Of a DNA stretch of 37,490 nucleotides, positions 1-28,727 are shown piece by piece. The position numbers and the translations under genes are program-made. This DNA is from Gammaproteobacteria bacterium. Its GTDB lineage: Bacteria; Pseudomonadota; Gammaproteobacteria; Steroidobacterales; Woeseiaceae. Location: positions 1-37,490 of the forward strand of contig JAACFM010000033.1 of assembly GCA_009937445.1 (NCBI GenBank), in the 5' to 3' direction. Under the pieces are notes generated by a model. It ran no database searches and was not told where the DNA came from. It worked only from the letters and a program-made list of their open reading frames with translations. The first letter of the stretch is position 1, and every line of letters starts with the position of its first letter.

Positions 1-956
1 CCAAGCTCGCTCTGTAATTTGGATAAGTAATTATCGCGGTCAAAGTCGTTCATGTTCGACGTATTGACACTCACACCAGCGCAGAAGCAGGCTGGTCGCG
101 TACGTCGGGCCAACCGCAGCGCATCATCAATGACCTCATCTAGTTGCGGAATCGGATAATCACCGCCGGACTCGTCAATTGCCAGACGCTCGGCGTCGTG
201 GCAAAGAATGATCGCATCGGGTTGCGAGCCATGCAGCAGGCCGAGGCTGACTCCCGAGTAGCTTGGATTGAGGAGTGAGCCCTGTCCTTCAATGACATCC
301 CAGTGGTCGTGGTCGTTGTCGGGAGACAAGACCTGCGCCGCGCCGGATATGAAGTCGGCGACCACGGCATCAACCGGTATTCCTTCTCCGGCGATCATAA
401 TGCCTGTTTGTCCGGTTGCTCTGAACGTTGTTTTGACGCCCCGGCGTTCGAGCTCGCGATGCATGGCGAGGGCACTGTATTTTTTGCCGACGGCACAATC
501 GGTACCGACCATGAGGACTCTTTTTCCGGAGCGTAATCGGCCATCGCCAATCGGAATTCCGGGCGGCGGAATACGCACATCGATTAGTTTTGCGCCGCCA
601 CTTTTTGCAGCGGCGAGCAGGTCGGGGTTATCCACGAGCTTGCTGTGCAATCCTGCGGCGATATTGAGGCCGGCGGCTGCGAGCTTGGCCAACTGGGGAA
701 CCCAGTGTTCAGGTATCTGCCCACCCATCGGCGCGACACCAACGATCACGGTCTTGATGCCCGCATCTTTGGCTTCCTGCACGGTCAACTCGGGAAGCCC
801 AAGATCAACCGGGCAGTCCGGTAATCGCATTTGCCCGGCGCATCGTTCGGGTCGCCAATGGGCTATGCCCGCACCGGTCTTTGCATGGTGAGTATCGGGA
901 ACGTCACCCAAATAAATGAGGTACGGGGCTTCGAGGTTTATTCTCGTTAATTCCAT
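1..956 (-). CDS. dgcN: DgcN-type D-glutamate N-acetyltransferase (DUF1611), 3' end cut by window
   Basis: The leftward frame from the ATG at 954-956 stays open for 318 codons and runs off the window, so only about the last 15-20 residues should be missing. The N-terminal domain has PYLIYLGD and WRPERCAGQ-type segments. A P-loop-like GTDCAVGKKYSA lies near residue 170, followed by FRATGQTGIMIAGEGI, DFISGAA, WDVIEGQGSL and GVSLGLLHGSQPDA. This is the conserved order of DUF1611 proteins. Family knowledge: DgcN acetylates D-glutamate and DgcA then racemises the N-acetyl-D-glutamate. The gene starts 43 bp after the E2 gene on the same strand, so it is probably the last or a late member of the leucine/branched-chain catabolic operon. 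A dgcA gene would be expected just beyond position 1 but cannot be seen. Family assignment is firm; the exact substrate is inferred. Confidence 0.85.
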   Translation of the reverse strand, partial: MELTRINLEAPYLIYLGDVPDTHHAKTGAGIAHWRPERCAGQMRLPDCPVDLGLPELTVQEAKDAGIKTVIVGVAPMGGQIPEHWVPQLAKLAAAGLNIAAGLHSKLVDNPDLLAAAKSGGAKLIDVRIPPPGIPIGDGRLRSGKRVLMVGTDCAVGKKYSALAMHRELERRGVKTTFRATGQTGIMIAGEGIPVDAVVADFISGAAQVLSPDNDHDHWDVIEGQGSLLNPSYSGVSLGLLHGSQPDAIILCHDAERLAIDESGGDYPIPQLDEVIDDALRLARRTRPACFCAGVSVNTSNMNDFDRDNYLSKLQSEL

Positions 957-5666: not shown

Positions 5667-6134
5667 ATGCAAAATATTTCTCTGGATCAAACGGATCGAA
5701 AAATTCTCGACTTGCTGCAATCAAGCTCCGGAATAAATGCAGCCGCGATAGGCGAACGTATCGGACTCTCCCAGTCGGCCTGCTGGCGTCGAATCCAGCG
5801 CATGCGAGAGGACGGTGTCATCCGCGACCAGCCGGTTATTCTGGATCGCGAGAAGGTCGGTTTGACGACAATGGTGTTCGCGCACGTGAAGCTGACATCA
5901 CACGGTCGCAGTAATTTGTCGACCTTTGCCGACGATGTGAAGCAGTATCCAGAAGTGCTGGACTGCTACGTGGTGCTTGGCAACGTCGACTTTCTATTAC
6001 GCATCGTCACGAAAGATATCAAAGCCTACGAACAATTCTTTTTCGAAAAGCTCTCGCAGCTTCCGGGCATACAGGAAGTGACATCAAGCATCGTGTTGTC
6101 CGACATCAAACACACGACGGCTCTTCCGATCTAG
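5667..6134 (+). CDS. Lrp/AsnC family transcriptional regulator
   Basis: 155 residues, usual length. The N-terminal helix-turn-helix (about 10-60) begins with LDQTDRKILDLLQ and contains the recognition region IGLSQSACWRRIQRMREDGVI. The C-terminal RAM/ligand-binding domain has the pattern DVKQYPEVLDCYVVLGNVDFLLRIV-like and ends with STIVLSDIKHTT-like residues. It is transcribed away from leucine dehydrogenase across a symmetric AT-rich region, which points to a local regulator of branched-chain amino acid catabolism, probably a BkdR-type activator responding to leucine, isoleucine or valine. Its stop codon overlaps the stop of the convergent asparaginase gene (CTAG). Confidence 0.92.
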   Translation: MQNISLDQTDRKILDLLQSSSGINAAAIGERIGLSQSACWRRIQRMREDGVIRDQPVILDREKVGLTTMVFAHVKLTSHGRSNLSTFADDVKQYPEVLDCYVVLGNVDFLLRIVTKDIKAYEQFFFEKLSQLPGIQEVTSSIVLSDIKHTTALPI

Positions 6135-7015
6135 GCGAACGTTGCGACCTGCAACGGCTGCTTGCTTGAGACAGATGCGCGCTTCATACCGTCGGAGTTG
6201 TAAAGTGTCGCGATTTTTTGGAGTCGAGTAACAGCGATGACACCCGCATCGCCGCCCAGGCGCTTTACTTCGTCGAGCATGCCATTGATCGCATCATCCA
6301 GCGAGGCGCCGGATTTGAACGCGCAGGCGATCGACACCGCTCCGCCTGCGCGGATGATGTGTTCTCCGGTTCCCGTGCACGAAATCGCTATGTTGTCATC
6401 GGCCCAGGTGCCCGGCCCGATGAGCGGTGTGTCACCGATGCGGCCTTCGAGTTTGCCGAATGTGCCGCCGGTCGATGTCGCCGCGGCCAGCGCACCGGAC
6501 TGATCCAGCGCCACAGCGCCGACTGTGCCGTGAGCATTACTGTTCGTTGTCTCATCCTTGGTGACACCGACCGGGAGGCGGTAATAATCGTCGGGGTTTT
6601 CAACCTCGGCATAGCCGTTGTCGCGTGCGAAGGCGGCGGCACCAGCACCTGCGAGCAGGACGTGCGGCGTTTTTTCCATCACGCCGCGGGCTATTTGTAT
6701 CGGGCTCTCAAAACCGGGCAACGCTGCGACGGCACCGGCTTCGCGTGAAGGTCCGTACATGATCGATGCGTCCAGCTCAACATAGCCCGCCGTATTCGGA
6801 GCGGATCCTCGTCCAGCGACATACATTCCGGACGTTTCCATTTCGATGACCGCAGTTTCGACAACATCGAGTGCGCTGCAGCCGTTTGCAAGCAGTGTTT
6901 CGCATTCTTTCGTCAGACCAAGGAGATGTTCCTCAACTGAGTGGTAGTTACGGCCAGCTACTGCACCAGCACCGCCGTGCAGAGCGAAAGCGTATTGCTT
7001 ATTCGATTGGCTCAT
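6131..7015 (-). CDS. iaaA: Isoaspartyl peptidase/L-asparaginase (Ntn-hydrolase)
   Basis: 294 residues from the ATG at 7015. This is a plant-type asparaginase that hydrolyses isoaspartyl dipeptides and asparagine. The precursor opens with FALHGGAGAVAG. It contains VAGRGSAPNTAGYVELDASIM and the autocleavage site AHGTVGAVALD, which makes Thr164 the N-terminal nucleophile after self-processing. GGTFGKLEGRIGDTPLIGPGTWAD-like sequence follows and provides the substrate-binding Arg/Asp. An in-frame upstream ATG at 7057 would only add 14 residues that do not fit the family. No signal peptide is visible, so the enzyme is cytoplasmic. It probably works with the neighbouring amino acid and peptide catabolism genes. 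Confidence 0.92.
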   Translation of the reverse strand: MSQSNKQYAFALHGGAGAVAGRNYHSVEEHLLGLTKECETLLANGCSALDVVETAVIEMETSGMYVAGRGSAPNTAGYVELDASIMYGPSREAGAVAALPGFESPIQIARGVMEKTPHVLLAGAGAAAFARDNGYAEVENPDDYYRLPVGVTKDETTNSNAHGTVGAVALDQSGALAAATSTGGTFGKLEGRIGDTPLIGPGTWADDNIAISCTGTGEHIIRAGGAVSIACAFKSGASLDDAINGMLDEVKRLGGDAGVIAVTRLQKIATLYNSDGMKRASVSSKQPLQVATFA

Positions 7016-7405
7016 CGTCTGCTTTTGGTTCAGGGAGGAACGCGAGCATAGCGGCAAACCGGGCCAAGGGGTAGCACCCGTCGTTGTCTAATGTGCCTGC
7101 AATTCGGCCCAGCCCCGGATAATTTACGCGGGCGCGGGATACTGGCACCGACAACGGGCTGAATTCGAATATCACGAGCAGCGCCCATTCTTATCTTAGA
7201 AACCACAGAAACGGCCAAATTCCGTTGTAAAAAAACGACAATGTGGAGATTTTATTACTCTCATTCGAATTTAGTGTTGCAAAAAACCAATTATACTAGG
7301 AGAATCGCTGCACCTGTCCACATTTGTCCGTGGATGACTGATGATGTCGCAGTACGATACCGAGCGACATTAATTAAGACAACGTAAGCATAAGGGGTTT
7401 AGATA
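7016..7405 (+). promoter_or_regulatory. 390-bp upstream region of the TonB-dependent receptor gene
   Basis: No gene is supported in this interval. The right half (from about 7200) is AT-rich and contains a TATACT at 7292-7297 that could serve as a -10 box for the receptor gene, but no good -35 element sits at the right distance. A ribosome site AAGGGG lies around 7392-7397, in front of the ATG at 7406. The left half belongs to the asparaginase upstream region. No clear operator was recognised. Confidence 0.35.
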
Positions 7406-10177
7406 ATGAACAGACACAAACAGTGGGCAACCGGATTCGGCTCCGTCGCCGCCGTGCTCGTGCTGTCGGTCGCGCCAAGCGGACCGGTGTACTCGCAGGA
7501 TGACGTAGAAGACGAAGATATTGCCATTGAAGAAATTGTGACCACAGGCTCACGAATTACTAGAAACGACTATAACTCTATGAGTCCTCTGACCGTTATA
7601 GGTGGTCAGGCACTCTTGGAGGCTGGCGTCTCGAACATCGGTGAGGCTTTGCGTGACCAGCCGACTATCGGCACCGGCGGTTTCAACCAGTCGAGCATTC
7701 TCTCTGGTGGTGGCTCCACGTCGATTGACCTCCGCAACCTGGGATCGGATCGTGTACTGATCTTGATCAATGGCCGTCGAGTAGCGTCGTTTGCGGACGC
7801 GCTGCAAAACCAGGCCGCAGATCTGAGCTTCGTGCCGTCAGCAATGGTTGATCGCGTAGAGATACTCCGTGACGGTGCATCAGCTGTATACGGATCCGAC
7901 GCTATCACGGGTGTTGTCAACGTCATTCTCAAGAAAGACTTCGAGGGTATCGAGCTCGCGCTAAATACGGGCGCAGCCACTGAAGGCGATGGCGAGAACT
8001 ACGGCGCGTCACTGACCATGGGCACAAGCAGCGACCGCGGCAACTTCGTTGTCGGCGCCGAGTATCGTCGCCAGGACGTGCTCAAGCAGGTTGATCGCGA
8101 CTGGGCGTTTCCGGCCATTTCTTCGCTCAACTCGGGTGGTGCGTCGAACGGCTCGTTCTTCTCGACCGGCGGATTCTTTGACACAGATGCTGGCTTTTTC
8201 TGCACGCAACCTCTAGCCTTCGGCGGCAATGAAATCGACGACATCTCGGGAACCCTCGGTTGTCCGAGCCTTGCCCCGAGGCAGAATGTCTCGAGCCCGG
8301 ACGATGTTCAGCTGCTTCGTTACGACTACGCGCTCGCACAGGACCTGATCGTCCCGAACGAGGTGATCACGGCGTCGGTGTTCGGTAACTACGAGCTGAA
8401 CGAAAGCACCAATGTTTTCTTGGAGATGCAGTACTCCAGTCGTGAGGGCGAAGGGCACCTCGACGGTAATCCTGGAGCGTTTTTTGTGCCGGGTACCAAC
8501 CCCAATAACCCGTTCCCGGGCGAAGACGGCTTTATGTACGTACGACCATCTACGACGGTCGGTCCGCGTACCTCGACTAATAACTCCAGCACATTCCGTG
8601 TTGTTGCTGGTCTTGACGGTGACTTGCCGTTTGGCGATAGCTGGACCTACGAGGCTTCCGTCTTGTACACGTCCGTCAATGCCGATCTCGTGACCAACTC
8701 CGTCTGGAACCTAGTGCGTATGGAACGTATCGCAGATCCTGATGCTTGTGCAGCTGACGCGCTGTGTTCGGCGGCTGTAAACTCGTCTGGCGCGCTTGAC
8801 GCTGCCCGCCCGGGTAACTGGACGGAACAGGAAATTCGCTATGTTCGCCAAAACTCGCAGGCTGTTTCGAAGTTCGATCTGATCGGTGCACAGGCGTTCA
8901 TTTCCGGTGCCTTGTTTGAGATGCCGGCTGGCGACGTCAACATGGCATTCGGCGTGGAGACTCGCAGGGAAACGGGCTTCGCCAAGCCTGACTCGGTAAC
9001 GGAAGCGGGCGAGAGTATCGCCAACCAGACATACACGACACGAGGCGCTTACGAGACCGACGAGGCTTTCGTCGAGCTCGATATCCCGCTCCTGGCCGAT
9101 GTTACTGGTTTCGACAACCTCACTCTGAACTTGCAGTATCGTTTCACGGACTACAGCAGTTTCGGTTCTGACGATGCGTATCGTGCGGGCATCAACTGGG
9201 CAGTCAACGATTGGGTGCGGATCCGCGGTAACGTCAGTACTGCATATCGTGCGCCGAGCGTGACCGACCTTTACAGTGGCGGTGTGCAGAGTTTCGACTT
9301 CTTCACCGACCCCTGTGAAGCCGCAACGAGCGGCATCGTGCCCACGGACAATGCCTGGCAGAACTGTGAGCTCGATGGGATCGACCCGGCAACGTTCACT
9401 CAGCTTGCCTCTCAATACGCTGTTACTGCCGGCGGTAATCCGAATCTGGACCCTGAAACTGCGGACACGGTCACCTACGGTATCGTCTTCACGCCGCTCG
9501 GCTTCCTTGAAGGGTTACAGGTCTCGGTCGACGTCTGGGACATCGAAGTCGCCAATCTGGTTGGTCGCGGATCCTCCGATGATCAGCTGGATGCTTGCTA
9601 CAACGGCCCGGTCGGCCTCACGGCGCCGGAATGCGACCAGTTTCAGGGTCGTGATGGCGTTGGCAGACCGATCGACTTCATCAACTTTACTACGAACTTC
9701 GCAGATGATTTGGTGGAGACCAATGGTTACGACATCGGCATCAACTATGCGTTCGAGGCCGGTGCAACGAGCTGGAATTTGACGCTGAATGGAACGTGGA
9801 CCGACGAAAATACGTTCTATTCGGAAACCCCCAGCGCGAGCGATCGCGGCTCACAGCCGGATGTTGTATTCAACACACGCGTGGACATGTACCTGAACGA
9901 CTGGTCCTTTTCCTGGCTCACGCGCAACATCGGGAGTATGAACGATACGAGATATGACGTTGGTAGTAACCCATTCGGTTATAGCTCAGTCGACTCCTAT
10001 ACGAAGCACGACATTCGTGTAGCATACGACTGGGAACGCTACCGCGTGGCGGTCGGTATCAATAATGTTACCAACGAAGATCCGCCATATGTCTTCGGAT
10101 CTGGTAACAATACGGACACATTCCTGTACGACGTATTCGGTACGTACTGGTATGCACGTATGACGTTCTCGATGTAA
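7406..10177 (+). CDS. TonB-dependent outer-membrane receptor
   Basis: 923 residues. An N-terminal signal peptide (about 1-30, ending around PVYSQ) is followed by an acidic linker and the TonB-box-like stretch IEEIVTTGSRI. The plug domain (about 50-170) contains GEALRDQPTIGTGG, IDLRNLGSDRVLILINGRR, MVDRVEILRDGASAVYGSDAITGVVNVI, all hallmark sequences. The rest is a 22-strand beta-barrel with the YRAPSVTDLYSGG and GGNPNLDPETADTVTYGI motifs, ending in a short aromatic C-terminal strand (YWYARMTFSM). It imports a ligand across the outer membrane using TonB energy. The cargo cannot be told; several Cys pairs in extracellular loops and the neighbouring asparaginase would fit peptides or oligosaccharides equally. 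Monocistronic, with its own terminator. Confidence 0.95.
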   Translation: MNRHKQWATGFGSVAAVLVLSVAPSGPVYSQDDVEDEDIAIEEIVTTGSRITRNDYNSMSPLTVIGGQALLEAGVSNIGEALRDQPTIGTGGFNQSSILSGGGSTSIDLRNLGSDRVLILINGRRVASFADALQNQAADLSFVPSAMVDRVEILRDGASAVYGSDAITGVVNVILKKDFEGIELALNTGAATEGDGENYGASLTMGTSSDRGNFVVGAEYRRQDVLKQVDRDWAFPAISSLNSGGASNGSFFSTGGFFDTDAGFFCTQPLAFGGNEIDDISGTLGCPSLAPRQNVSSPDDVQLLRYDYALAQDLIVPNEVITASVFGNYELNESTNVFLEMQYSSREGEGHLDGNPGAFFVPGTNPNNPFPGEDGFMYVRPSTTVGPRTSTNNSSTFRVVAGLDGDLPFGDSWTYEASVLYTSVNADLVTNSVWNLVRMERIADPDACAADALCSAAVNSSGALDAARPGNWTEQEIRYVRQNSQAVSKFDLIGAQAFISGALFEMPAGDVNMAFGVETRRETGFAKPDSVTEAGESIANQTYTTRGAYETDEAFVELDIPLLADVTGFDNLTLNLQYRFTDYSSFGSDDAYRAGINWAVNDWVRIRGNVSTAYRAPSVTDLYSGGVQSFDFFTDPCEAATSGIVPTDNAWQNCELDGIDPATFTQLASQYAVTAGGNPNLDPETADTVTYGIVFTPLGFLEGLQVSVDVWDIEVANLVGRGSSDDQLDACYNGPVGLTAPECDQFQGRDGVGRPIDFINFTTNFADDLVETNGYDIGINYAFEAGATSWNLTLNGTWTDENTFYSETPSASDRGSQPDVVFNTRVDMYLNDWSFSWLTRNIGSMNDTRYDVGSNPFGYSSVDSYTKHDIRVAYDWERYRVAVGINNVTNEDPPYVFGSGNNTDTFLYDVFGTYWYARMTFSM

Positions 10178-10206
10178 GACTGATCGACTCGTTGAATCGA
10201 GTGAAG

Positions 10207-10237
10207 GGTGGGTTCTTCGGAACCCACCTTTTTTTTT
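10207..10237 (+). terminator. Rho-independent terminator of the TonB-dependent receptor gene
   Basis: A perfect 9-bp stem GGTGGGTTC / GAACCCACC closes a TTCG tetraloop (10216-10219) and is followed by nine T residues (10229-10237). It ends exactly where the left inverted repeat of an insertion element begins. A smaller hairpin ACTCG / CGAGT lies at 10187-10202, between the stop codon and the terminator. Confidence 0.92.
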
Positions 10238-10266
10238 GAGTCTGTAAATAATTCTGTGTAACTGCC
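10238..10266 (+). repeat. Left terminal inverted repeat of the IS256-family element
   Basis: The 29-bp repeat starts GAGTCTGTAAA and ends CTGTGTAACTGCC. Compared with the right-hand copy read on the opposite strand it differs at four positions. It directly abuts the T-tract of the upstream terminator. Confidence 0.85.
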
Positions 10267-20674: not shown

Positions 20675-21859
20675 TCATTTTGCGTATTGCTTCGCAACCT
20701 GCCGGTAGGCGTCGCGGAAGGGAATGCCTTCTTCGCGTACCAGTCGATACGCTTCTGCCGTTGCGAAAATGCCGTCGTCGAGGTGGATGTTATCTGCTTG
20801 AAAAGTCAGTCCTTCGAGCACGTATGCCATGATATCAACGCTGTCGATCGCCAGATCGATCGATCGGAACAGAGGTGATTTCAGCCGCTGCAAATCGCGG
20901 TGGTATCCGGACGGTAGCTTGGCCGTGATCATCAATGATTCGTCGAGGCATGCTTGCGACGTCGCCGACGAGGCGCGCAATAGCTCCAGTACGTCAGGAT
21001 TGCGTTTCTGCGGCATGATAGATGAGCCTGTCGTGACCTCTGGCGCGAGCGATATGTAGGCAAACTCCTGTGTGTAGAACATCAGGAGATCGCTGGCCAT
21101 ACGACTCAGATCCTGCATCAACAATGTTATTTCGAACAACAGTGCGCTTTCGGCTTTTCCCCGTGACAGTTGTGCTGCCGTCACGGGAGTCTGAGTGACA
21201 TCGAATTCAAGCTTGGTTGTGGTCGAGTTTCTGTCCAGAGGCAGTCCGGGCGTGCCGTAACCGGCCGCGCTGCCCAGCGGGTTCTTGTTGATACGTTTAC
21301 GGACAGCCCGCAGGCCGTCACATGCGTCGCCAAAACCCTCATCGAAACCGCCGCACCACAACGCCACGGATGACGGCATGGCGTGTTGCATATGCGTGTA
21401 TCCGGGCAGTTCAATATCACCCTGGCGTTTGCTGAGTGCGCCGATCGCCTGCCGTAGCTCTGCAACACGACCGGCAAGATCATCGGCCACGTCGCGCAGA
21501 TACATGCGTAGTGCGGTGAGTACCTGATCGTTTCTCGATCGGCCGAGATGCAGTCGTCCTCCTGCCGGACCGATCGCATCGGTGAGGCGCGTTTCGATGG
21601 CCGTATGTGCATCCTCGTCCTGGAGACCGATCTGCCATTTTCCCGCAGCAAAGCTGTCGTTCAGTGTATTCAGACCATCGCGAATCAGGGCGCAGTCTTC
21701 TGCACTGATCAGATTCTGTGCGGCGAGCATTTCAGCGTGTGCGATTGAGCCGCGCACATCGTAAGCCACGAGGCGGGCATCCAGAAGATGATCTTCTCCC
21801 GCGGTGTAACGGAGTACGCGTTCATCCAGAGGCAAGCCCTTTTCCCAGAGCCTGCTCAT
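20675..21859 (-). CDS. argH: Argininosuccinate lyase
   Basis: 394 residues. It splits argininosuccinate into arginine and fumarate, the last step of arginine synthesis. The order of conserved blocks is LWEKGLPLDERV, YDVRGSIAHAEML, LHLGRSRNDQV (about 103-113), GYTHMQHAMPSS (His156), NPLGSAAGYG, and the signature GSSIMPQKRNPD (278-289) with the catalytic Ser. The HAMPSS variant and the LPSGYHRDLQ block resemble Bacteroidetes-type ArgH rather than the E. coli enzyme. The protein ends soon after PFRDAY, about 60 residues earlier than E. coli ArgH, so the C-terminal helices are short. Its ATG overlaps the argB stop (ATGA). It is the last gene of the operon. Confidence 0.94.
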   Translation of the reverse strand: MSRLWEKGLPLDERVLRYTAGEDHLLDARLVAYDVRGSIAHAEMLAAQNLISAEDCALIRDGLNTLNDSFAAGKWQIGLQDEDAHTAIETRLTDAIGPAGGRLHLGRSRNDQVLTALRMYLRDVADDLAGRVAELRQAIGALSKRQGDIELPGYTHMQHAMPSSVALWCGGFDEGFGDACDGLRAVRKRINKNPLGSAAGYGTPGLPLDRNSTTTKLEFDVTQTPVTAAQLSRGKAESALLFEITLLMQDLSRMASDLLMFYTQEFAYISLAPEVTTGSSIMPQKRNPDVLELLRASSATSQACLDESLMITAKLPSGYHRDLQRLKSPLFRSIDLAIDSVDIMAYVLEGLTFQADNIHLDDGIFATAEAYRLVREEGIPFRDAYRQVAKQYAK

Positions 21860-22785
21860 GATCCTGTGCTTTGTTCGGCTGGTGTCAGTCCGCCGATGTC
21901 ATTGACGACAAGTGTCCCGGTACCTTCGTTTGTAAACACCTCAAGAAGAATGCTGTCCGGCAATCTGCTCGAAATGATGTGAACCCGCTGCACGCCGTTT
22001 GAGATCGCCGCATCAATCGCCGCTGCCTTGGGCAGCATGCCATCCGCCAGCGATCCGGAATCGCGCAGTTTTTGCAGAGCAGCCCGATCGATATAGCTGA
22101 TCAGCGAGTTCGGGTCATTGACGTCTTCCAAAATCCCTGCAGCACCGGTTGCAAGAATGAGCTTTTCAGCGTCAAGTTCGGCCGCAATGGCCGCCGCGAC
22201 GGTGTCTGCGTTGATGTTCAGTATCGTGCCGGATTCGTCACAGGACAATGGACTTACGACGGGCATCAGACCGTTGTCGAGCTGCTTCCTTAGAATGTCG
22301 GCATCAACAGAATCGATGTCCCCGACAAAGCCGTAGTCGACAGTGGATTGACCGTCCCGTTCGACGGGTGGCCGCCTGTGCGCGCGAATCAATCCGGCGT
22401 CTACGCCACTGATGCCTACAGCCGGTATTTGCAGATCCCGGCAGGTGGCCAGAATGCGCGTGTTGATCTGGCCATTCAGGACCATTGTTGCAACGTCGAG
22501 AGACTCACCATCGGTAACCCGGCGTCCATCAATAAACGTCGTGTCGAGGCCAAGCGCTGCGGCCAGCTTGGTCGACTGGGGGCCACCACCGTGAATGAGG
22601 ACAACACGGATACCCACCTGATGCAGGATGCCGACTTGCTCAATCAACGCGCGGGATTTTTCAATGTCTGCAAAGATTTCGCCGCCTGCTTTAATGACAA
22701 AGACCTTGCCTTTATAGAGGCGAATATACGGCGCCGCATGCTTGAGTGCGGAAACCACAATCGCGCGATCTTGCTTGCTGCTCAT
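21856..22785 (-). CDS. argB: N-acetylglutamate kinase (possibly N-acylglutamate)
   Basis: 309 residues, a kinase-only ArgB. It phosphorylates N-acetyl-L-glutamate. Visible motifs are FVIKAGGE (Lys32), LIHGGGPQ (65-70), DGRRVTDGESLDVATMVLNGQINT, and the NADTVAAAIA block that contacts ATP; LADGMLPKAAAI closes the domain. It lacks the C-terminal GNAT domain that makes the Xanthomonas ArgB a bifunctional synthase/kinase, so this gene cannot supply N-acetylglutamate synthase. The GRRVTDGESL form places it near the Xanthomonas/eukaryote-like kinase group. It overlaps both neighbours by ATGA junctions. Confidence 0.94.
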   Translation of the reverse strand: MSSKQDRAIVVSALKHAAPYIRLYKGKVFVIKAGGEIFADIEKSRALIEQVGILHQVGIRVVLIHGGGPQSTKLAAALGLDTTFIDGRRVTDGESLDVATMVLNGQINTRILATCRDLQIPAVGISGVDAGLIRAHRRPPVERDGQSTVDYGFVGDIDSVDADILRKQLDNGLMPVVSPLSCDESGTILNINADTVAAAIAAELDAEKLILATGAAGILEDVNDPNSLISYIDRAALQKLRDSGSLADGMLPKAAAIDAAISNGVQRVHIISSRLPDSILLEVFTNEGTGTLVVNDIGGLTPAEQSTGS

Positions 22786-23792
22786 GACTGGCCTCCCAGC
22801 ATCTGATGTAAGACGGCCATTTGCGCGAGCATGCGATTTCGCGCTTCAGGGATCACAACGCTTCTTGGTCCATCGAGAATCTCGTCGGCAACAACAACAC
22901 CCCGGCGTACCGGGAGGCAGTGCATAAAACGGCAGTCGTCTTTCGCGTTTTCGAACCAGTGCTCATCAACGCACCAGTCGAGATGTTGTTCCCGCAGCTT
23001 CTGGTCATTGAGCCTGTCACCGTAGTGGCGGGTTGATGACCAGGATTTGGCGTAAATAACATGGGCACCTTCCATCGCTTCACTGCGTTGATCCGTTGCG
23101 GTGATCGAACCGCCGGATACATCTGCGGCTGCGGCTGCTTTTTGCATTAGCGCGTCAGGTAGTTCGAACCCTTCCGGACGAAGAACGGTAACGTCCATAC
23201 CGCGTTTGGCGGCCATGTGCAAGGTTGCGGCGGGGACAGCCAGGGGCAGTGCTTTCGGATGATACGCCCAGCTCAAAACGAATTTTCCACCGTTGGCCGG
23301 AAGATTCAAATCATCCATGGTTTTCCAGTCGGCCAGACTTTGGCAGGGGTGATTCATGGCGGATTCCATGTTGATGTACGGCGTATCGATGAGATTTGTC
23401 ATCGCCGTAAATTCATTTTCCTGCATATCCGTTTCGATACTCTTTCGTTCTGCGAAAGCGCGGATGCCGATCGCGTCTCCGTAGGAGGCAATGACGGGGA
23501 CGGCCTCTCGAATGTGTTCCGCGGCGACTCCGTCCATCACAATTCCGGGTCGGGATTCGAGGCCGTGAATCGACATGTCCGGAGAGATGACAAACGATCC
23601 GCCTCCGAGTCGCACCATGGCCGCCTGAAATGAGGCGAGCGTTCTAAGAGAGGGGCTCAGGAACAAGAGCGACAGCACTTTTCCTTTAAGGGCTTCCGGC
23701 TCTGGATTTGAGTCGAGCCGACCCGCCAGCGCGACCAGTGCCTTTATCTCTTCATTGGAAAAATCGGCTAAGTCGTTAAAAGCTTTCATCAA
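22782..23792 (-). CDS. argF': N-acyl-L-ornithine carbamoyltransferase (AOTCase/SOTCase type)
   Basis: 336 residues. Carbamoyl-phosphate site SPSLRTLASF (about 47-55), the loop MDGVAAEHIREAVPV (87-101), HPCQSLADW, and FMHCLPVRRG mark the acetylornithine/succinylornithine carbamoyltransferase branch rather than ordinary OTCase. It carbamoylates N-acylornithine to N-acylcitrulline. At the position that in Xanthomonas AOTCase is Glu92 and in Bacteroides SOTCase is Pro90, this protein has Ala91 (alignment done by eye from memory). The choice of acetyl or succinyl substrate is therefore open. The pathway needs a deacylase later, which is not encoded here. Start at either of two adjacent ATGs (23792 or 23789). 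Confidence 0.9.
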   Translation of the reverse strand: MMKAFNDLADFSNEEIKALVALAGRLDSNPEPEALKGKVLSLLFLSPSLRTLASFQAAMVRLGGGSFVISPDMSIHGLESRPGIVMDGVAAEHIREAVPVIASYGDAIGIRAFAERKSIETDMQENEFTAMTNLIDTPYINMESAMNHPCQSLADWKTMDDLNLPANGGKFVLSWAYHPKALPLAVPAATLHMAAKRGMDVTVLRPEGFELPDALMQKAAAAADVSGGSITATDQRSEAMEGAHVIYAKSWSSTRHYGDRLNDQKLREQHLDWCVDEHWFENAKDDCRFMHCLPVRRGVVVADEILDGPRSVVIPEARNRMLAQMAVLHQMLGGQS

Positions 23793-23800
23793 CAGTTCCT

Positions 23801-24991
23801 TCAGTTGGTTGCGGGCACAATTAACGTTAGTGCCTCGACAAGATGATCAATGTGGCTGGGTTCCAGTACCAGTGGCGCAAGAATGCGAAGAACATTCGGG
23901 TCGCCACTGGTGCCGGTCAGAATATTGTGCGCCAGGAGGGCATCGCGCACCTCAAGCGCCGGGCGGTCGCAAACCAGGCCCAGTAGCAAACCCATACCCT
24001 GGATTCTCCTTACGGGGCCGACAATGCACTTTTCGCGAATCAGCGCCTCGCAGCGGCGAACATTTGCCAGCAGGTTTTCGCTTTCAATGGCATCAATCGT
24101 TGCGGCGATGGCCGCTGCTGCAACCGGTCCGCCACCGAATGTCGATCCGAGATCGCCGGGACCGAAGTGCGCAGCGATCGCATGACTGCATAAAACCGCG
24201 CCACAGGGTATGCCGCCGCCTAATGCCTTTGCGCTGGTCAGAATATCGGGTACAAGCTGATGCACCTGCACCGCAAAGAACTGACCGCTTCGCCCCATTC
24301 CGGACTGGACCTCATCGGCGATCAGGAGCGCACCATGTTTTGACGTTGCGGATCGCAGGGCGTGGAGGAAATCCGTCGACAGATCAAAAGCGCCGGCGAC
24401 GCCTTGCACGGGTTCGAAAATGACCGCAGCTACGTCACTGTCGATCATCTCTTTTGCCGCGGCGATGTCGTCACGTGGAATGAAGTCGACCTCGAACGGT
24501 TTCGCTGGAAATCCGTACCAGCGATCCGAGTTCCAGGTGACGGCTGCAGCCGCAGCTGTTCTGCCGTGAAAGCCCTCTGTGATTGCGAGCACCTTGTTAC
24601 GACGCGTCGCCATACAGGCCATTCGAAGAGCGTTCTCGTTCGCTTCTGCACCCGAGTTTACAAAGAACACGCGATCTAAGCCGTCTGCAGCAACCCGCGT
24701 CAATTTTTCGGCCGCGTCTGCGCGTATGTCGAGAGCAACCGCGTTGCTCTGAAACAGCAGCGTGTTGCTTTGCTCTGTGATCGCCTTGACCAGTTGCGGG
24801 TGGCCATAACCCAGTGCGGCGACGGCATGTCCACCGTACAGGTCGAGAATTCTTCGGCCGTCCCGGGTGAATATGTCACAGCCGCTGGCGCGCTCCGGCA
24901 CGAACGGCAATTGACCGTATACCGGAATCATGACATTCGCTTCGCGCGTTCGCGGGTCGGATGGGACGTTTTGATCGGTGATCGTCGTCAT
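23801..24991 (-). CDS. argD: N-acetylornithine aminotransferase (class III, PLP-dependent)
   Basis: 396 residues from the ATG at 24991, which overlaps the argC stop by one base (TGATG). It converts N-acylglutamate semialdehyde to N-acylornithine with glutamate as donor. Motifs are LDLYGGHAVAALGYGHP, the PLP-phosphate site NSGAEANE (112-119), GFHGRT, DEVQSGMGRSG (226-236), and the PLP lysine Lys255 in SAKALGGGIP. STFGGGPVAAAA follows. An in-frame start upstream would run into argC and is rejected. The gene is 8 bp from argF'. Specificity for acetyl- or succinyl-ornithine cannot be told apart by sequence. Confidence 0.93.
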   Translation of the reverse strand: MTTITDQNVPSDPRTREANVMIPVYGQLPFVPERASGCDIFTRDGRRILDLYGGHAVAALGYGHPQLVKAITEQSNTLLFQSNAVALDIRADAAEKLTRVAADGLDRVFFVNSGAEANENALRMACMATRRNKVLAITEGFHGRTAAAAAVTWNSDRWYGFPAKPFEVDFIPRDDIAAAKEMIDSDVAAVIFEPVQGVAGAFDLSTDFLHALRSATSKHGALLIADEVQSGMGRSGQFFAVQVHQLVPDILTSAKALGGGIPCGAVLCSHAIAAHFGPGDLGSTFGGGPVAAAAIAATIDAIESENLLANVRRCEALIREKCIVGPVRRIQGMGLLLGLVCDRPALEVRDALLAHNILTGTSGDPNVLRILAPLVLEPSHIDHLVEALTLIVPATN

Positions 24992-25999
24992 CACGTCCAC
25001 CCGGGAGCGGCGGCTGTCAGGCCCGCAGTTTCCGGCAGGCTCCAAAGGCGATTCATCCACTGAACAGCACCGCCGGCAGCGCCTTTGACCAGGTTGTCGA
25101 TAACGCTCATCACGACGACTGAATCCCCGTCAGTTGCTACGCCGATATGGCACATGTTGCTCGCGACAACGTTTTTGAGTCTGGGTGTTGCTGCGACGAT
25201 TTCGACGAACGGTGAGTCGGCGTACGCACTCTTGTAAACGTCTCTTAGCTGTTGCTCGCTGATCTCTGATATCGCCCTGGCTTGTACGGTGACGTGTATT
25301 CCTCTTGCGAAGGGCCCTGAGTGCGGCACAAACCGCACCGTCGTATTGCGACCGCTCGCCGCTGTTGTGAGTCCCGCCATTTCCGGGGCATGACGATGCC
25401 CAAGCGGTTTGTAGGCATACATATTGCTGTTGCGTTCCGGGTGATGCGTGCCCGCTTGCGGACTGCGTCCGGAGCCTGTGCTACCGGTCACGCCGGACAC
25501 GAAGACCTCCGCTTCGGTTAACCCCGAACGTATGAGAGGCACCGTCGCAAGCAAAGTCGCTGTCGCAAAACAGCCGGGGTGTCCGACGTGCGGTGTCGAA
25601 ACAGCATCTCTGTGTTCGGGTACCGCGCAGGTGAATTCGGACAATAGTGACGGTGCTCCGTGAGCGGCACCGTAAACGTCCTCCCAGGCCGATTGTTCTG
25701 CATAGCGAAAATCGGCCGATGAGTCGACAACATGGATCGTCCACTGTCTTTGCGCTGCTGTGAGCAGCGCTGCCGCGATAACCTCCGCCGAGGCACCGTG
25801 AGGTGCAGCCGAGAACAACGCAACGCTGCTGCCGTTTTTGATCTCGTCGTGCCAGCTGTCTCGGGCGACGAAGTGTACGCCCGACAGTGCCTGTGACAGA
25901 TGACCAAATGTCTCGGCGACGGGCAGCGATGAGGCGCAGCAACTCCCCGCCAACGTAGCCGCTGGCACCCAGCACCACCGCTTGAATGGATGTACTCAT
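24991..25999 (-). CDS. argC: N-acetyl-gamma-glutamyl-phosphate reductase, with apparent frameshift
   Basis: The product spans two frames. The expected start is the ATG at 25999 (overlapping the previous stop, ATGA), giving MSTSIQAVVLGASGYVGGELLRLIAA with the NADP-binding GASGYVGGE. From about 25925 leftward the family sequence continues in another frame (LPVAETFGHLSQALSGVHF onward). That frame runs to 24991 without interruption and contains GHPGCFATATLL (catalytic Cys), GVTGSTGSGR, and the His-containing MYAYKPLGHRHAPE. An indel of 1 or 2 bp (mod 3) near 25920-25940 is needed. The catalytic half alone would start at an ATG at 25968 but then lacks the nucleotide-binding motif. It is either a real mutation, a recoding site, or a base-call error. 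Confidence 0.85.
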
Positions 26000-27051
26000 G
26001 CGGATTCCTCGCGAAGTATTGCCGCCACCATGTCGCCGAGTTCAACGCCACTGGAGAGCGCATTAATGGCCGGCAGCGACAGGCGTTCAGCAATTTGTTG
26101 GATGCCAACGTCATTGTCTGTGGCGGGTCCGGTGACAACGGCTGGCTCAATACCAAATTCGTCGCGCAGTATTTTGGCACCTCCCCAGGCAGAAACAGGA
26201 TCGTTCGCACACAGCACCACCGCCGTCATTGCTTTACGAATGTGTTCGTCTTCGAGAATAGCCGCTACGCCGTATGCGCCCAGTAAACCGTCACCCAGTT
26301 CAAGCACAATGACGTCGGGCTTTTTGGCGCCGAGACCGGTCAGTAATGAGCGCGTAAGGGCGGGGCCATTTTCAGCGGTCGTCGTCACAATGCCCAGATC
26401 GGAAAAAATCATCGTGTCCATGGCGCCTGCATCCTCCATTGCGAGAATGTCGCGCCGCAACGAAACACCGGTTGCTTTGCAGGCGGCAACTTTGAATCCC
26501 AGGTGGCGGAGTCGACCGACAATGGCGCAGGCTGCCGCGGTCTTTCCAGAGTCCATACAGGTGCCCGCCAGTGCGACCACCGGAACGCCATTGGTTTTCA
26601 ATGGGGCGTTAATATCAAGTTGCGAGGACCCGGCGCGAGCCGGTACGCCGATACGCTCACCCAGGAAAGGGAACTCAAGCACGGTGCCCAGCACCTCGCA
26701 TTCGAACGGTGGGCCGACATCGGGATTCGCTGAATCGCAGATTCCGATCACGCCGCCGATATTCAGGATCTGGAGATTGTCGCCTGGCTGCAGTTCGCTC
26801 GGGAGATGTCCGGAGTAACCGCGCAGAGCCTTTCGATGACCGAGCGCGCCGACGACGATATCGCCCATCGTGACGGTGGCCATACGACCGGATGTGAGTT
26901 CAAGCTGGTTATATCGCGACTTGTTATTGAGCACTCTGACGGCAATGAGGATGCCTTCTTCACACGGAATGTCCGGCGACAGGCGCAGCTCCGGCGCCAG
27001 CTCATTGTGCTGCGCAACGGAAGCGACTTTATCGACAACGATATTTTTCAT
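25996..27051 (-). CDS. P-loop protein of the arginine operon, DUF1611/DgcN-like; candidate acyltransferase
   Basis: 351 residues, start at 27051, one base after the argG stop; it ends in an ATGA overlap with argC. I do not recognise a characterised family for the whole protein. Residues 1-150 form a beta-rich domain (GRMATVTMGDIVVGALGHR, NIGGVIGICDSANP, GPPFECEVLG). Residues 155-351 form a P-loop domain: VVALAGTCMDSGKTAAA with Lys170, then ACKATGVSLRRDI, VIVLELGDGLLGAYG, and VVLCANDP. The order of P-loop, [F/C]xATG, ExGxGxL and a late strand matches DgcN (see the gene at 1-956), and the fold type recalls BioD-like synthetases. Its place between argG and argC, where Bacteroidetes operons carry a GNAT acyltransferase in the same neighbourhood, suggests it makes N-acylglutamate. 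That function is an inference. Confidence 0.75.
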   Translation of the reverse strand: MKNIVVDKVASVAQHNELAPELRLSPDIPCEEGILIAVRVLNNKSRYNQLELTSGRMATVTMGDIVVGALGHRKALRGYSGHLPSELQPGDNLQILNIGGVIGICDSANPDVGPPFECEVLGTVLEFPFLGERIGVPARAGSSQLDINAPLKTNGVPVVALAGTCMDSGKTAAACAIVGRLRHLGFKVAACKATGVSLRRDILAMEDAGAMDTMIFSDLGIVTTTAENGPALTRSLLTGLGAKKPDVIVLELGDGLLGAYGVAAILEDEHIRKAMTAVVLCANDPVSAWGGAKILRDEFGIEPAVVTGPATDNDVGIQQIAERLSLPAINALSSGVELGDMVAAILREESA

Positions 27052-27052
27052 T

Positions 27053-28261
27053 TCATTTTCCTGCCGCGCGCGTCTGCAACGATCCGGGCAGCGACAGAAT
27101 GCGGGCATAGCCGAGTGCATCAGTGGCTGTCCATTCACCCGCGGACTCTCCGTAGACGCCCTTGGTGGCGGCGAGCAAAGAGTGTGGCGATGACGTGCCC
27201 TCGATGAACAGCTGCCCGGGCCGCAGGCTGAATGAGACCGTTCCAGTGACGCGTTTCTGCGAAGACGTGAGCATTGCCTCGATATCGTCACACGCCAGAT
27301 CAAGTTGTTTTCCTTCATGGACCAGGTCGCCGTAAACGGCAGATACGCTGTCCTTGATCCGCATCTGCTGTCCGCTTAGAACGAGCTTCTCAAGTTCGCG
27401 ATGAGCGGTGATGAGCGTTATCGCAGCGGGTGCCTCAAAGGCGACGCGACCCTTGGTACCCAGCACGGTATCGCCGAGGTGGATGCCACGCCCGATCCCG
27501 TAGCTTCCCGCTAGATCTTCGAGTTGCTCGATCAGTTCGACCGTGGGGAGGGAGTTGCCATCCAGCGCAACCGGTATCCCGGCAGCGAATTCCAGGGTGT
27601 GATTTGAGGGTGCCTGCGGTGCTGAAAATGCACTCGCTGACAACACCCAGGCCGATTCGGGGATCGACCCATCTGATGTCAGTGTTTCCTGACCGCCGAT
27701 GGTGATGCCCCAGAGACCGCGATTTATCGAGTAGGCGGATCCCTGCGAAGGCAGTGGCAATTTGTGTGTTTCAAGATAGGCCAGCTGTTCGTCACGCACC
27801 CAATTGTTGTCGCGAACCGGCGCAAGAACCTCAAGGCCGGGGCTGAGTGTCCTGAGGGCGACTTCAAACCGCACCTGATCATTGCCGGCCGCTGTGCATC
27901 CGTGAGCGACTGTCGTCGCGCCACGCTCTGCTGCAATTTGTGCCAGTCGCGCCGCCTGCAGGCCACGTTCAGCGCCTACACACAGCGGATAGGCCTGGCC
28001 GCGTAACACATTGCCCGCGATTAGATATCGTATTACGGAATCGAAGAAATCCTGTTTGGCATCAATGAGGATGTGTTCGATTGCACCCAAAGCCATCGCG
28101 CGCTTTTCCAGAGCAACGGCGGCAGCGGCATCAATGCCGCCAGTATCCACGCAGGCAGTAATGACATCGCGACCGTAATTCTCCTTTAGCCACGGCACGC
28201 AGAATGACGTGTCGAGACCGCCGGAAAACGCAAGAATGATGGGTGAATTGTCGTTACTCAA
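27053..28261 (-). CDS. argG: Argininosuccinate synthase
   Basis: 402 residues. It condenses citrulline and aspartate with ATP. The N-type ATP pyrophosphatase motif LAFSGGLDTSF (10-20) is followed by IAGNVLRGQAYPLCVGAER, TVAHGCTAAGNDQVRF, and NRGLWGITIGGQETLTSDGSIPE. GNVLR...YP and GNDQVRF blocks resemble the Bacteroidetes form more than the E. coli one. The start is a TTG at 28259-28261 with GGAG 8 bp upstream; no ATG fits without losing the ATP motif. It is 19 bp downstream of argR. The C-terminal part (SSQKRVTGTVSFSLRPGQLFIEG) is complete. Confidence 0.94.
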   Translation of the reverse strand: MSNDNSPIILAFSGGLDTSFCVPWLKENYGRDVITACVDTGGIDAAAAVALEKRAMALGAIEHILIDAKQDFFDSVIRYLIAGNVLRGQAYPLCVGAERGLQAARLAQIAAERGATTVAHGCTAAGNDQVRFEVALRTLSPGLEVLAPVRDNNWVRDEQLAYLETHKLPLPSQGSAYSINRGLWGITIGGQETLTSDGSIPESAWVLSASAFSAPQAPSNHTLEFAAGIPVALDGNSLPTVELIEQLEDLAGSYGIGRGIHLGDTVLGTKGRVAFEAPAAITLITAHRELEKLVLSGQQMRIKDSVSAVYGDLVHEGKQLDLACDDIEAMLTSSQKRVTGTVSFSLRPGQLFIEGTSSPHSLLAATKGVYGESAGEWTATDALGYARILSLPGSLQTRAAGK

Positions 28262-28280: not shown

Positions 28281-28727
28281 TCAAGAGCGCGTTGAATGCT
28301 CTATTCGTGTGATGAGGTTCTTCTGTGTGGTGCCGGATTCGGTGGCCACAAACACGGTGTCGTCGCCGCCGATGTTGCCGATTACTTCAGGCCAGTTGCA
28401 GCGATCAAACGCCAGCGCAACGCGTTGCGCGGCGCCTATGGCTGTTCTGACAACCAGCAGATTGGGGCCGGCCGGTTGGATCGTACGCAGCAGCTCGGCG
28501 ACAGCGGCCAGCTGGTCGTCATCATCACGATGGGCGGACGGTAGCTCGTAGCCTTGCGCGGTCTTGATGGCGCCAATTTCTCTCAAGTCACGACTGACAC
28601 TGGACTGCGTGGCGCTGTAGCCCGTTTTTGTCAAAGCGGCAACCAGTGAGTCCTGCGTTTTTGCAGGTCCTTTGAGCAGCAATTGCCGTATCGCGTCGCG
28701 CCTTTGTTCGTGATTTGTGTTTGGCAT
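28281..28727 (-). CDS. argR: Arginine repressor ArgR
   Basis: 148 residues. The N-terminal winged helix-turn-helix has TKTGYSATQSSVSRDLREIGAIK, the family DNA-recognition region. The C-terminal hexamerisation and arginine-binding domain ends with VIGNIGGDDTVFVATESG, in which the Asp-Asp pair contacts arginine. It is the first gene of the operon, placed directly downstream of a perfect inverted repeat (28741-28778), so autoregulation and arginine repression of the whole operon are very likely. Confidence 0.93.
   Translation of the reverse strand: MPNTNHEQRRDAIRQLLLKGPAKTQDSLVAALTKTGYSATQSSVSRDLREIGAIKTAQGYELPSAHRDDDDQLAAVAELLRTIQPAGPNLLVVRTAIGAAQRVALAFDRCNWPEVIGNIGGDDTVFVATESGTTQKNLITRIEHSTRS

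Follow-up and report, generated by a model that had tools for sequence, protein, structure and literature searches.

The arginine operon of a Woeseiaceae gammaproteobacterium raises the question of which enzyme admits glutamate into the pathway, an entry step that is a common control point of arginine synthesis (PMC3827942). Among the operon proteins that were scanned, none showed an ArgJ match or an acetyltransferase domain, and an unrecognised gene, here called ORFX, lies between argG and argC. ORFX is probably the N-acylglutamate synthase of this entry step, whichever donor it uses, an inference made without activity data. The window, that is, the whole stretch of DNA that was analysed (37,490 nucleotides, contig JAACFM010000033.1 of assembly GCA_009937445.1), is one entire contig of a 3.29 Mb genome in 175 contigs that is 90% complete. 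Its relevant features are these:

28281..28727, minus strand: argR, arginine repressor (domain and model scans)
27053..28261, minus strand: argG, argininosuccinate synthase (domain and model scans)
25996..27051, minus strand: ORFX, candidate P-loop N-acyl(succinyl)-glutamate synthase, 351 aa (ORF call, relatives, genome context)
26539..26565, minus strand: Walker A / P-loop GTCMDSGKT, ORFX residues 163-171 (invariant in 40 aligned sequences)
24991..25999, minus strand: argC, N-acylglutamyl-phosphate reductase (first 24 codons in another frame than the rest)
23801..24991, minus strand: argD, N-acylornithine aminotransferase (domain and model scans)
22782..23792, minus strand: argF', N-acylornithine carbamoyltransferase (NF003384, 327.4 bits, cut-off 288)
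23520..23522, minus strand: Ala codon at the argF' position setting acetyl versus succinyl preference (alignment with PDB chains)
21856..22785, minus strand: argB, N-acylglutamate kinase without an acetyltransferase domain (domain and model scans)
20675..21859, minus strand: argH, argininosuccinate lyase, short 394-aa form with no acetyltransferase fusion (domain and model scans)
3..956, minus strand: dgcN ortholog (DUF1611), truncated by the contig end, a comparison protein outside the operon (PDB and NCBIfam matches)

The genes run argR-argG-ORFX-argC-argD-argF'-argB-argH, followed by polA, and ORFX was confirmed as an open reading frame encoding 351 aa, with its ATG at 27051 and its stop at 25996-25998. 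An initial sequence-only reading had described an unrecognised 351-residue P-loop ORF between argG and argC, which held (the GTCMDSGKT stretch is what we take to be the Walker A motif, or P-loop), and had called its junctions overlapping, which was half right: the ORFX stop overlaps the argC ATG (25999) by 4 bases, and a 1-base gap separates the argG stop from the ORFX start. Its claim that the operon lacks ArgA, ArgJ, a GNAT protein and a NAGS domain on ArgB also held in the operon proteins scanned, with ArgB matching the ArgA models by its kinase part only and below the cut-off. The start of argD was placed at the probable ATG at 24991 by our own reading, the listed ORF beginning at 25060. 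In this assembly the first 24 codons of argC are out of frame, while four relatives that were checked have an intact 353-aa argC; the break may be a recent frameshift or an artefact of sequencing or assembly. An argHA fusion as a source of acetyltransferase was ruled out, ArgH being 394 aa long without an extra domain, a length found in 46 of the 63 related loci counted; the ArgH C-terminal Pfam domain is matched only partially by the window's protein, with a score under the cut-off.

The absence extends beyond the operon. No ArgJ match was found anywhere in the window's genome, and ORFX itself gave no GNAT or PF04768 (NAGS/K domain) match at E<=1 and no match to PF01960 (ArgJ). A search of 274 gammaproteobacterial genomes with an ORFX profile found matches in at least 18, which form two groups. 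Six genomes matched strongly (E <= 2.9e-95) and are called arg-type here: G000 (the window's genome), G167 and G017, all three from the window's own genus or order, together with G040, G118 and G234. The other twelve have only distant paralogs with weak matches (E 1e-9 to 1e-32). ArgA, scored as TIGR01890 over its cut-off, was present in none of the six arg-type genomes versus all twelve paralog-only genomes, and ArgJ in none versus 11 of the 12; across the class, 187 of the 274 genomes had ArgA over the cut-off and 207 matched ArgJ. By our own reading of the search results, a kinase-type hit without ArgA and ArgJ occurs in ten of the 274, namely the six arg-type genomes, G012 and G165, which have PF04768, and G024 and G079, which lack it as the six do. 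Fisher's test on the absence counts gave p of about 1e-9 (with a denominator of about 229, also our reading), a value that overstates independence, as the six come from three groups of families. ORFX sits with arg genes in all six of these genomes without ArgA over the cut-off, ArgJ or NAGS/K; weak matches to the GNAT part of the ArgA model were seen in G234 (32 bits) and G167 (20 bits). As a separate observation, G024 (91% complete) and G079 (81% complete) have a glutamate-kinase-type hit and no ORFX match, and could either be incomplete genomes or use another entry enzyme.

A scan of GTDB genomes returned 115 relatives of ORFX, from which 80 loci were kept, and the mean column identity was 81% in an alignment of 40 ORFX sequences; a chance ORF is therefore excluded. 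By our count of titles, 38 of the 80 relatives are Woeseia or Woeseiaceae and the others Gammaproteobacteria, Proteobacteria or Chromatiales. In all 80 loci ORFX has argG as its closest arg gene on the upstream side and argC on the downstream side, all on one strand; a 4-base argG/ORFX overlap occurs in 44, and in 71 the next long ORF begins at position −4 relative to the ORFX stop. The GTCMDSGKT, KATG, CANDP and TDN stretches are invariant across the 40 aligned sequences, and in the related loci ORFX shows identities to its window counterpart comparable to those of ArgG, ArgF' and ArgB. The ORFX proteins of G040, G118 and G234 are 46-49% identical to the window copy and still lie between argG and argC, with argD, argF, argB and argH also in the ORFX cluster of G040 and G118. 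In a family tree of 29 sequences the arg-type proteins split from the rest with a support of 99, and GDG, NDP and TDN stretches mark this group in the tree alignment, though there are a few exceptions.

The strongest single result came from a 398-genome sample of the phylum, which gave at least three weak ORFX matches and one further strong one, in G528, a genome of another class. There, the 19.9 kb examined contain the order argR-ORFX-argC-argB, and identity to the window proteins is 63% for ORFX, 59% for ArgB and 55% for ArgC; the ArgB proteins of G504, G361 and G563, from the same phylum, are 35-37% identical to the window's ArgB. The G528 ORFX groups with that of G017 in the tree with a support of 100. 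ArgJ is found in 38 of the 39 genomes in the family of G528 (in three of them partial or in pieces), and G528 is the sole one without it. No ArgA over the cut-off was found in G528 in a search that did not take in PF04768 or GNATs; G504 and G361, which are outside the class and have only distant paralogs, are also without ArgA over the cut-off, ArgJ not being covered there. This pattern of gene content is what would be expected had a transferred cassette displaced the entry enzyme, and it is apparently a natural gene replacement. The sequence-only proposal that ORFX acylates L-glutamate is thereby supported, though only by inference, by the gene absences, by the argG/argC context kept in other families and by the absence of ArgJ from G528.

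The identity of the acyl group was inferred from the carbamoyltransferase. ArgF' passes the N-acetylornithine model (score listed above), and at its specificity position the window protein has Ala where 3kzc, the chain of which we take to be a Xanthomonas-type carbamoyltransferase, and five other entries show the first Glu of EEHI; chain 3l02, the closest PDB hit to ArgF', has Ala at the same position. S, P, A or V at this position has been linked to a preference for the succinylated substrate (GapMind, PMC7311316). The residue is Ala in all 69 related loci with argF on the contig, and elsewhere it is Ala in G167 and G017, Pro in G040 and Val in G118; G234 and G528 were not included in this reading, and three argF hits in M20 loci were dropped. 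Succinylated intermediates are therefore predicted from the Ala, Pro or Val at this position, and if ORFX is the N-acylglutamate synthase, the group it transfers is probably succinyl, an inference that rests on the carbamoyltransferase residue.

The fold of ORFX is predicted rather than solved. Its structure model is mostly confident in the C-terminal domain from about residue 150, weaker over residues 191-230 and poor in the N-terminal part, the domain model of which has a pLDDT of 55 and, weak as it is, found no match at E<=0.001. VIA-align gave the P-loop domain Z scores of 17.3 with 2g0t, 16.7 with CTP synthase, 16.5 with 2obn, 15.8 with BioD and 15.5 with 7xrj; FtsY/Ffh, BioD and HypB ranked in the top 50 Foldseek rows, and the DUF1611 entries surfaced only with VIA-align. 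Pfam reported a sub-threshold MobB alone on the window ORFX, with no PF07755 (DUF1611) match at E<=1. PF07755 does match 10 of 40 ORFX homologs (best E 0.0087), and among eight further homologs two clear a cut-off, one that of PF07755 across a stretch of 42 residues and the other that of MobB. Comparison of the ORFX profile with that of 11 DUF1611 proteins gave a probability of 62.8% (E 7e-5, 169 columns, residues 153-347); with one DgcN sequence alone the match to ORFX was not significant (probability 0.6%), neither phmmer nor a profile search of solved structures yielded a usable hit for ORFX, and PHROGs gave no match. The C-terminal domain thus belongs, by its predicted structure, to the BioD/CTP-synthase/DUF1611 P-loop fold class, with DUF1611 among its nearest kin and not set apart from the others. 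The link to DgcN drawn earlier from a shared motif order in the C-terminal half is accordingly weaker than stated, CTP synthase and BioD being equally close, and the structural comparison suggested with it did find the DUF1611 fold, tied with those two.

DgcN, a D-glutamate N-acetyltransferase (DUF1611, PF07755; NF041892; 7xrj), shares with ORFX the C-terminal P-loop fold class, a K/R-A-T-G stretch after the P-loop and, as proposed, the same kind of substrate, which is D-glutamate for DgcN and would be L-glutamate for ORFX. The PDB title and the NCBIfam name of DgcN agree on an N-acetyltransferase, as does the annotation of its neighbour as "N-acetyl-D-Glu racemase DgcA", and DgcN is reported to use acetyl-CoA and D-glutamate (Yu et al. 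2023). It differs in its dgcN-dgcA context, where ORFX is in an arg operon, and in its P-loop, which is GKK in the window's DgcN versus GKT in 40 of 40 aligned ORFX sequences and 29 of 29 wider-family tree sequences; the N-terminal part of ORFX, moreover, found no match. BioD, MobB and CTP synthase, which are SIMIBI-type P-loop enzymes, have the C-terminal fold and P-loop in common with ORFX, whereas ORFX has an extra N-terminal part, the GDG/NDP/TDN stretches and another gene context. The window's own DgcN ortholog (3-956) matches 7xrj at E 1e-104 and NF041892 at 431.7 bits (cut-off 480), its gene being truncated by the contig end, and by our reading of translations it adjoins 2-oxo-acid dehydrogenase genes.

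The favoured reading, likely though its reaction is inferred, is that ORFX is a P-loop rather than a GNAT enzyme and synthesises N-succinylglutamate (or N-acetylglutamate), and it is held because of the operon position, the conservation, the absence of ArgA, ArgJ and NAGS/K, the replacement pattern and the carbamoyltransferase residue. In the proposed scheme, which would apply to Woeseiales and a few other lineages, ORFX would acylate the alpha-amino group of L-glutamate, most likely with a succinyl and otherwise with an acetyl group, taking it from an acyl-CoA bound at the P-loop domain, a donor favoured over ATP and free acid by analogy with DgcN. The N-acyl intermediate would pass through ArgB, ArgC and ArgD, ArgF' would carbamoylate the resulting N-acylornithine, an unlinked M20-type amidohydrolase or DapE would probably strip off the acyl group, and ArgG and ArgH would complete arginine synthesis. 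For the deacylation step, a scan of 20 of the 41 listed M20 hits, including 8 of the 10 from the window's genome, turned up none over the ArgE cut-off. G000, G017, G040, G118 and G234 each have DapE and an amidohydrolase of the TIGR01891 type (G167 was outside the scan), and either could deacylate N-acylcitrulline, an activity that is only inferred.

The main alternative is a version of the same proposal in which ORFX, by analogy with its fold neighbours, is an ATP-dependent ligase that couples L-glutamate to free succinate or acetate by way of an acyl phosphate, without CoA. It is judged rather unlikely. The sequence-only reading had allowed for a nucleotide-dependent ligase, and this version is favoured by the canonical GKT in place of the GKK of the window's DgcN and by the closeness of BioD and CTP synthase (Z 15.8-16.7), which activate their substrates likewise; against it, the sole fold neighbour with reported glutamate acylation, DgcN, is named an N-acetyltransferase and is reported to use acetyl-CoA. 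A different objection is that a short GNAT encoded elsewhere is the real NAGS and that ORFX has a regulatory role, for instance as a pathway activator that depends on a nucleotide or on CoA. There are indeed 11 GNAT hits in the window's genome, of which 10 were scanned, and over the cut-offs these gave one RimI and one ArsN2; none of the 10 passed a NAGS cut-off, the best NAGS-labelled match being 42.6 bits to a C. glutamicum-type model with a cut-off of 280. The earlier suggestion to search the genome for ArgA or a GNAT-type NAGS thus ended with no ArgA over its cut-off and with GNATs of which none scanned qualified. The GNAT labelled ArsN2 (L193:499-951) has a weak similarity to PRK07757 (35 bits, cut-off 154), and by our reading of translations its gene adjoins ampE/ampD-like genes, not arg genes; as a candidate NAGS it was set aside on this gene context and its sub-cut-off score. 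A cryptic short GNAT acting as NAGS in this genome remains conceivable and is not excluded, but a regulatory ORFX would leave the absence of ArgJ in G528 unexplained, and this rival, like the regulatory role raised earlier, is judged unlikely.

Two further rivals turn on the deacylation step, and both are very unlikely. ORFX could be an acyl-recycling transferase, an ArgJ analogue that provides both entry and deacylation by passing the acyl group of N-acylornithine or N-acylcitrulline on to glutamate. In its favour are the lack of ArgE over the cut-off in the M20 hits scanned from the window's genome and the absence from G528 of ArgJ, which does both jobs; against it, ORFX has no ArgJ match, the TIGR01891-type amidohydrolase and DapE occur in the five arg-type genomes scanned, and the P-loop is left unexplained. 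Alternatively, ORFX could be the absent deacylase, also named in the sequence-only reading, or another accessory enzyme of the operon. No deacylase has been assigned among the M20 and DapE candidates, which would leave room for it, but ORFX has a P-loop fold, and its distant homologs adjoin M20 peptidases (in G008, G167 and G504, and near one on a Priestia plasmid), next to which a second deacylase would be redundant.

Distant paralogs of ORFX lie in other settings. Those of G008 and G504, and the second ORFX copy of G167, adjoin an M20 peptidase, and such a paralog and peptidase may form an acylating and deacylating pair. The loci concerned are L125 (G167, 7399-10246), L179 (G504, 6133-8967) and L115 (G008, 5790-7549), with PF01546 in all three; a flavin-reductase-domain gene lies alongside in G504 and a similar-looking one in G167. 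Other paralogs precede an ABC exporter gene: six neighbours were scanned, all with ABC transporter domains, and three plasmid records are so annotated. This branch comprises L117, L119, L120, L121, L123, L124, L160, L162 and L163, from gamma- and alphaproteobacteria. On the Priestia megaterium plasmid NZ_CP085446.1 (L161, 2793-11481), a distant homolog lies in what we read as a phosphonate-type cluster, which also encodes two ATP-grasp and two thiamine-pyrophosphate proteins along with an ornithine carbamoyltransferase, an M20 peptidase and a member of the PEP mutase family. Annotations of the distant plasmid members read DUF1611, dethiobiotin synthase or hypothetical. A bolder reading, of which we are doubtful, would make all of these one N-acylating P-loop family of three branches, one for arginine entry, one paired with M20 peptidases and one paired with ABC exporters, the first of them making N-succinylglutamate by ATP-driven ligation of free succinate, without GNAT or CoA.

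ArgA, S-NAGS, O-NAGS, H-NAGS, C-NAGS, NAGS/K and ArgJ serve the pathway step proposed for ORFX and, except for ArgJ, are GNAT-related (PMC4490483, PMC3827942), whereas ORFX matches neither GNAT-type NAGS nor ArgJ. A 2015 review noted that the glutamate-succinylating gene was unidentified (PMC4490483), and a GNAT has since been proposed for Bacteroidetes (PMC9026213). That protein, ArgA2 (BT3761), a predicted N-succinylglutamate synthase, shares with ORFX the proposed reaction, a place in arginine operons and a succinyl-type carbamoyltransferase (PMC7311316, PMC9026213), but it is described as a GNAT, unlike ORFX with its P-loop. ArgA3 of Veillonella and Dialister, a predicted N-acetylglutamate synthase, was likewise proposed for the first step from gene context, and is described as an N-acetylcysteine deacetylase homolog and not as a P-loop protein (PMC9026213). 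No paper on a P-loop NAGS was found in the literature searched, which covered titles and abstracts and left out most subscription journals; "arginine" and "auxotroph" did not occur in two Woeseiales papers, and PMC5764234 contained no occurrence of the words sought.

If the assignment is true, this P-loop enzyme would be a new solution to an old reaction, and there would be a handle on the unnamed protein family to which ORFX belongs. It would also complete the arginine pathway in the Woeseiales, which account for 1-22% of marine-sediment 16S sequences (PMC7082342), and automatic predictions of auxotrophy would change.
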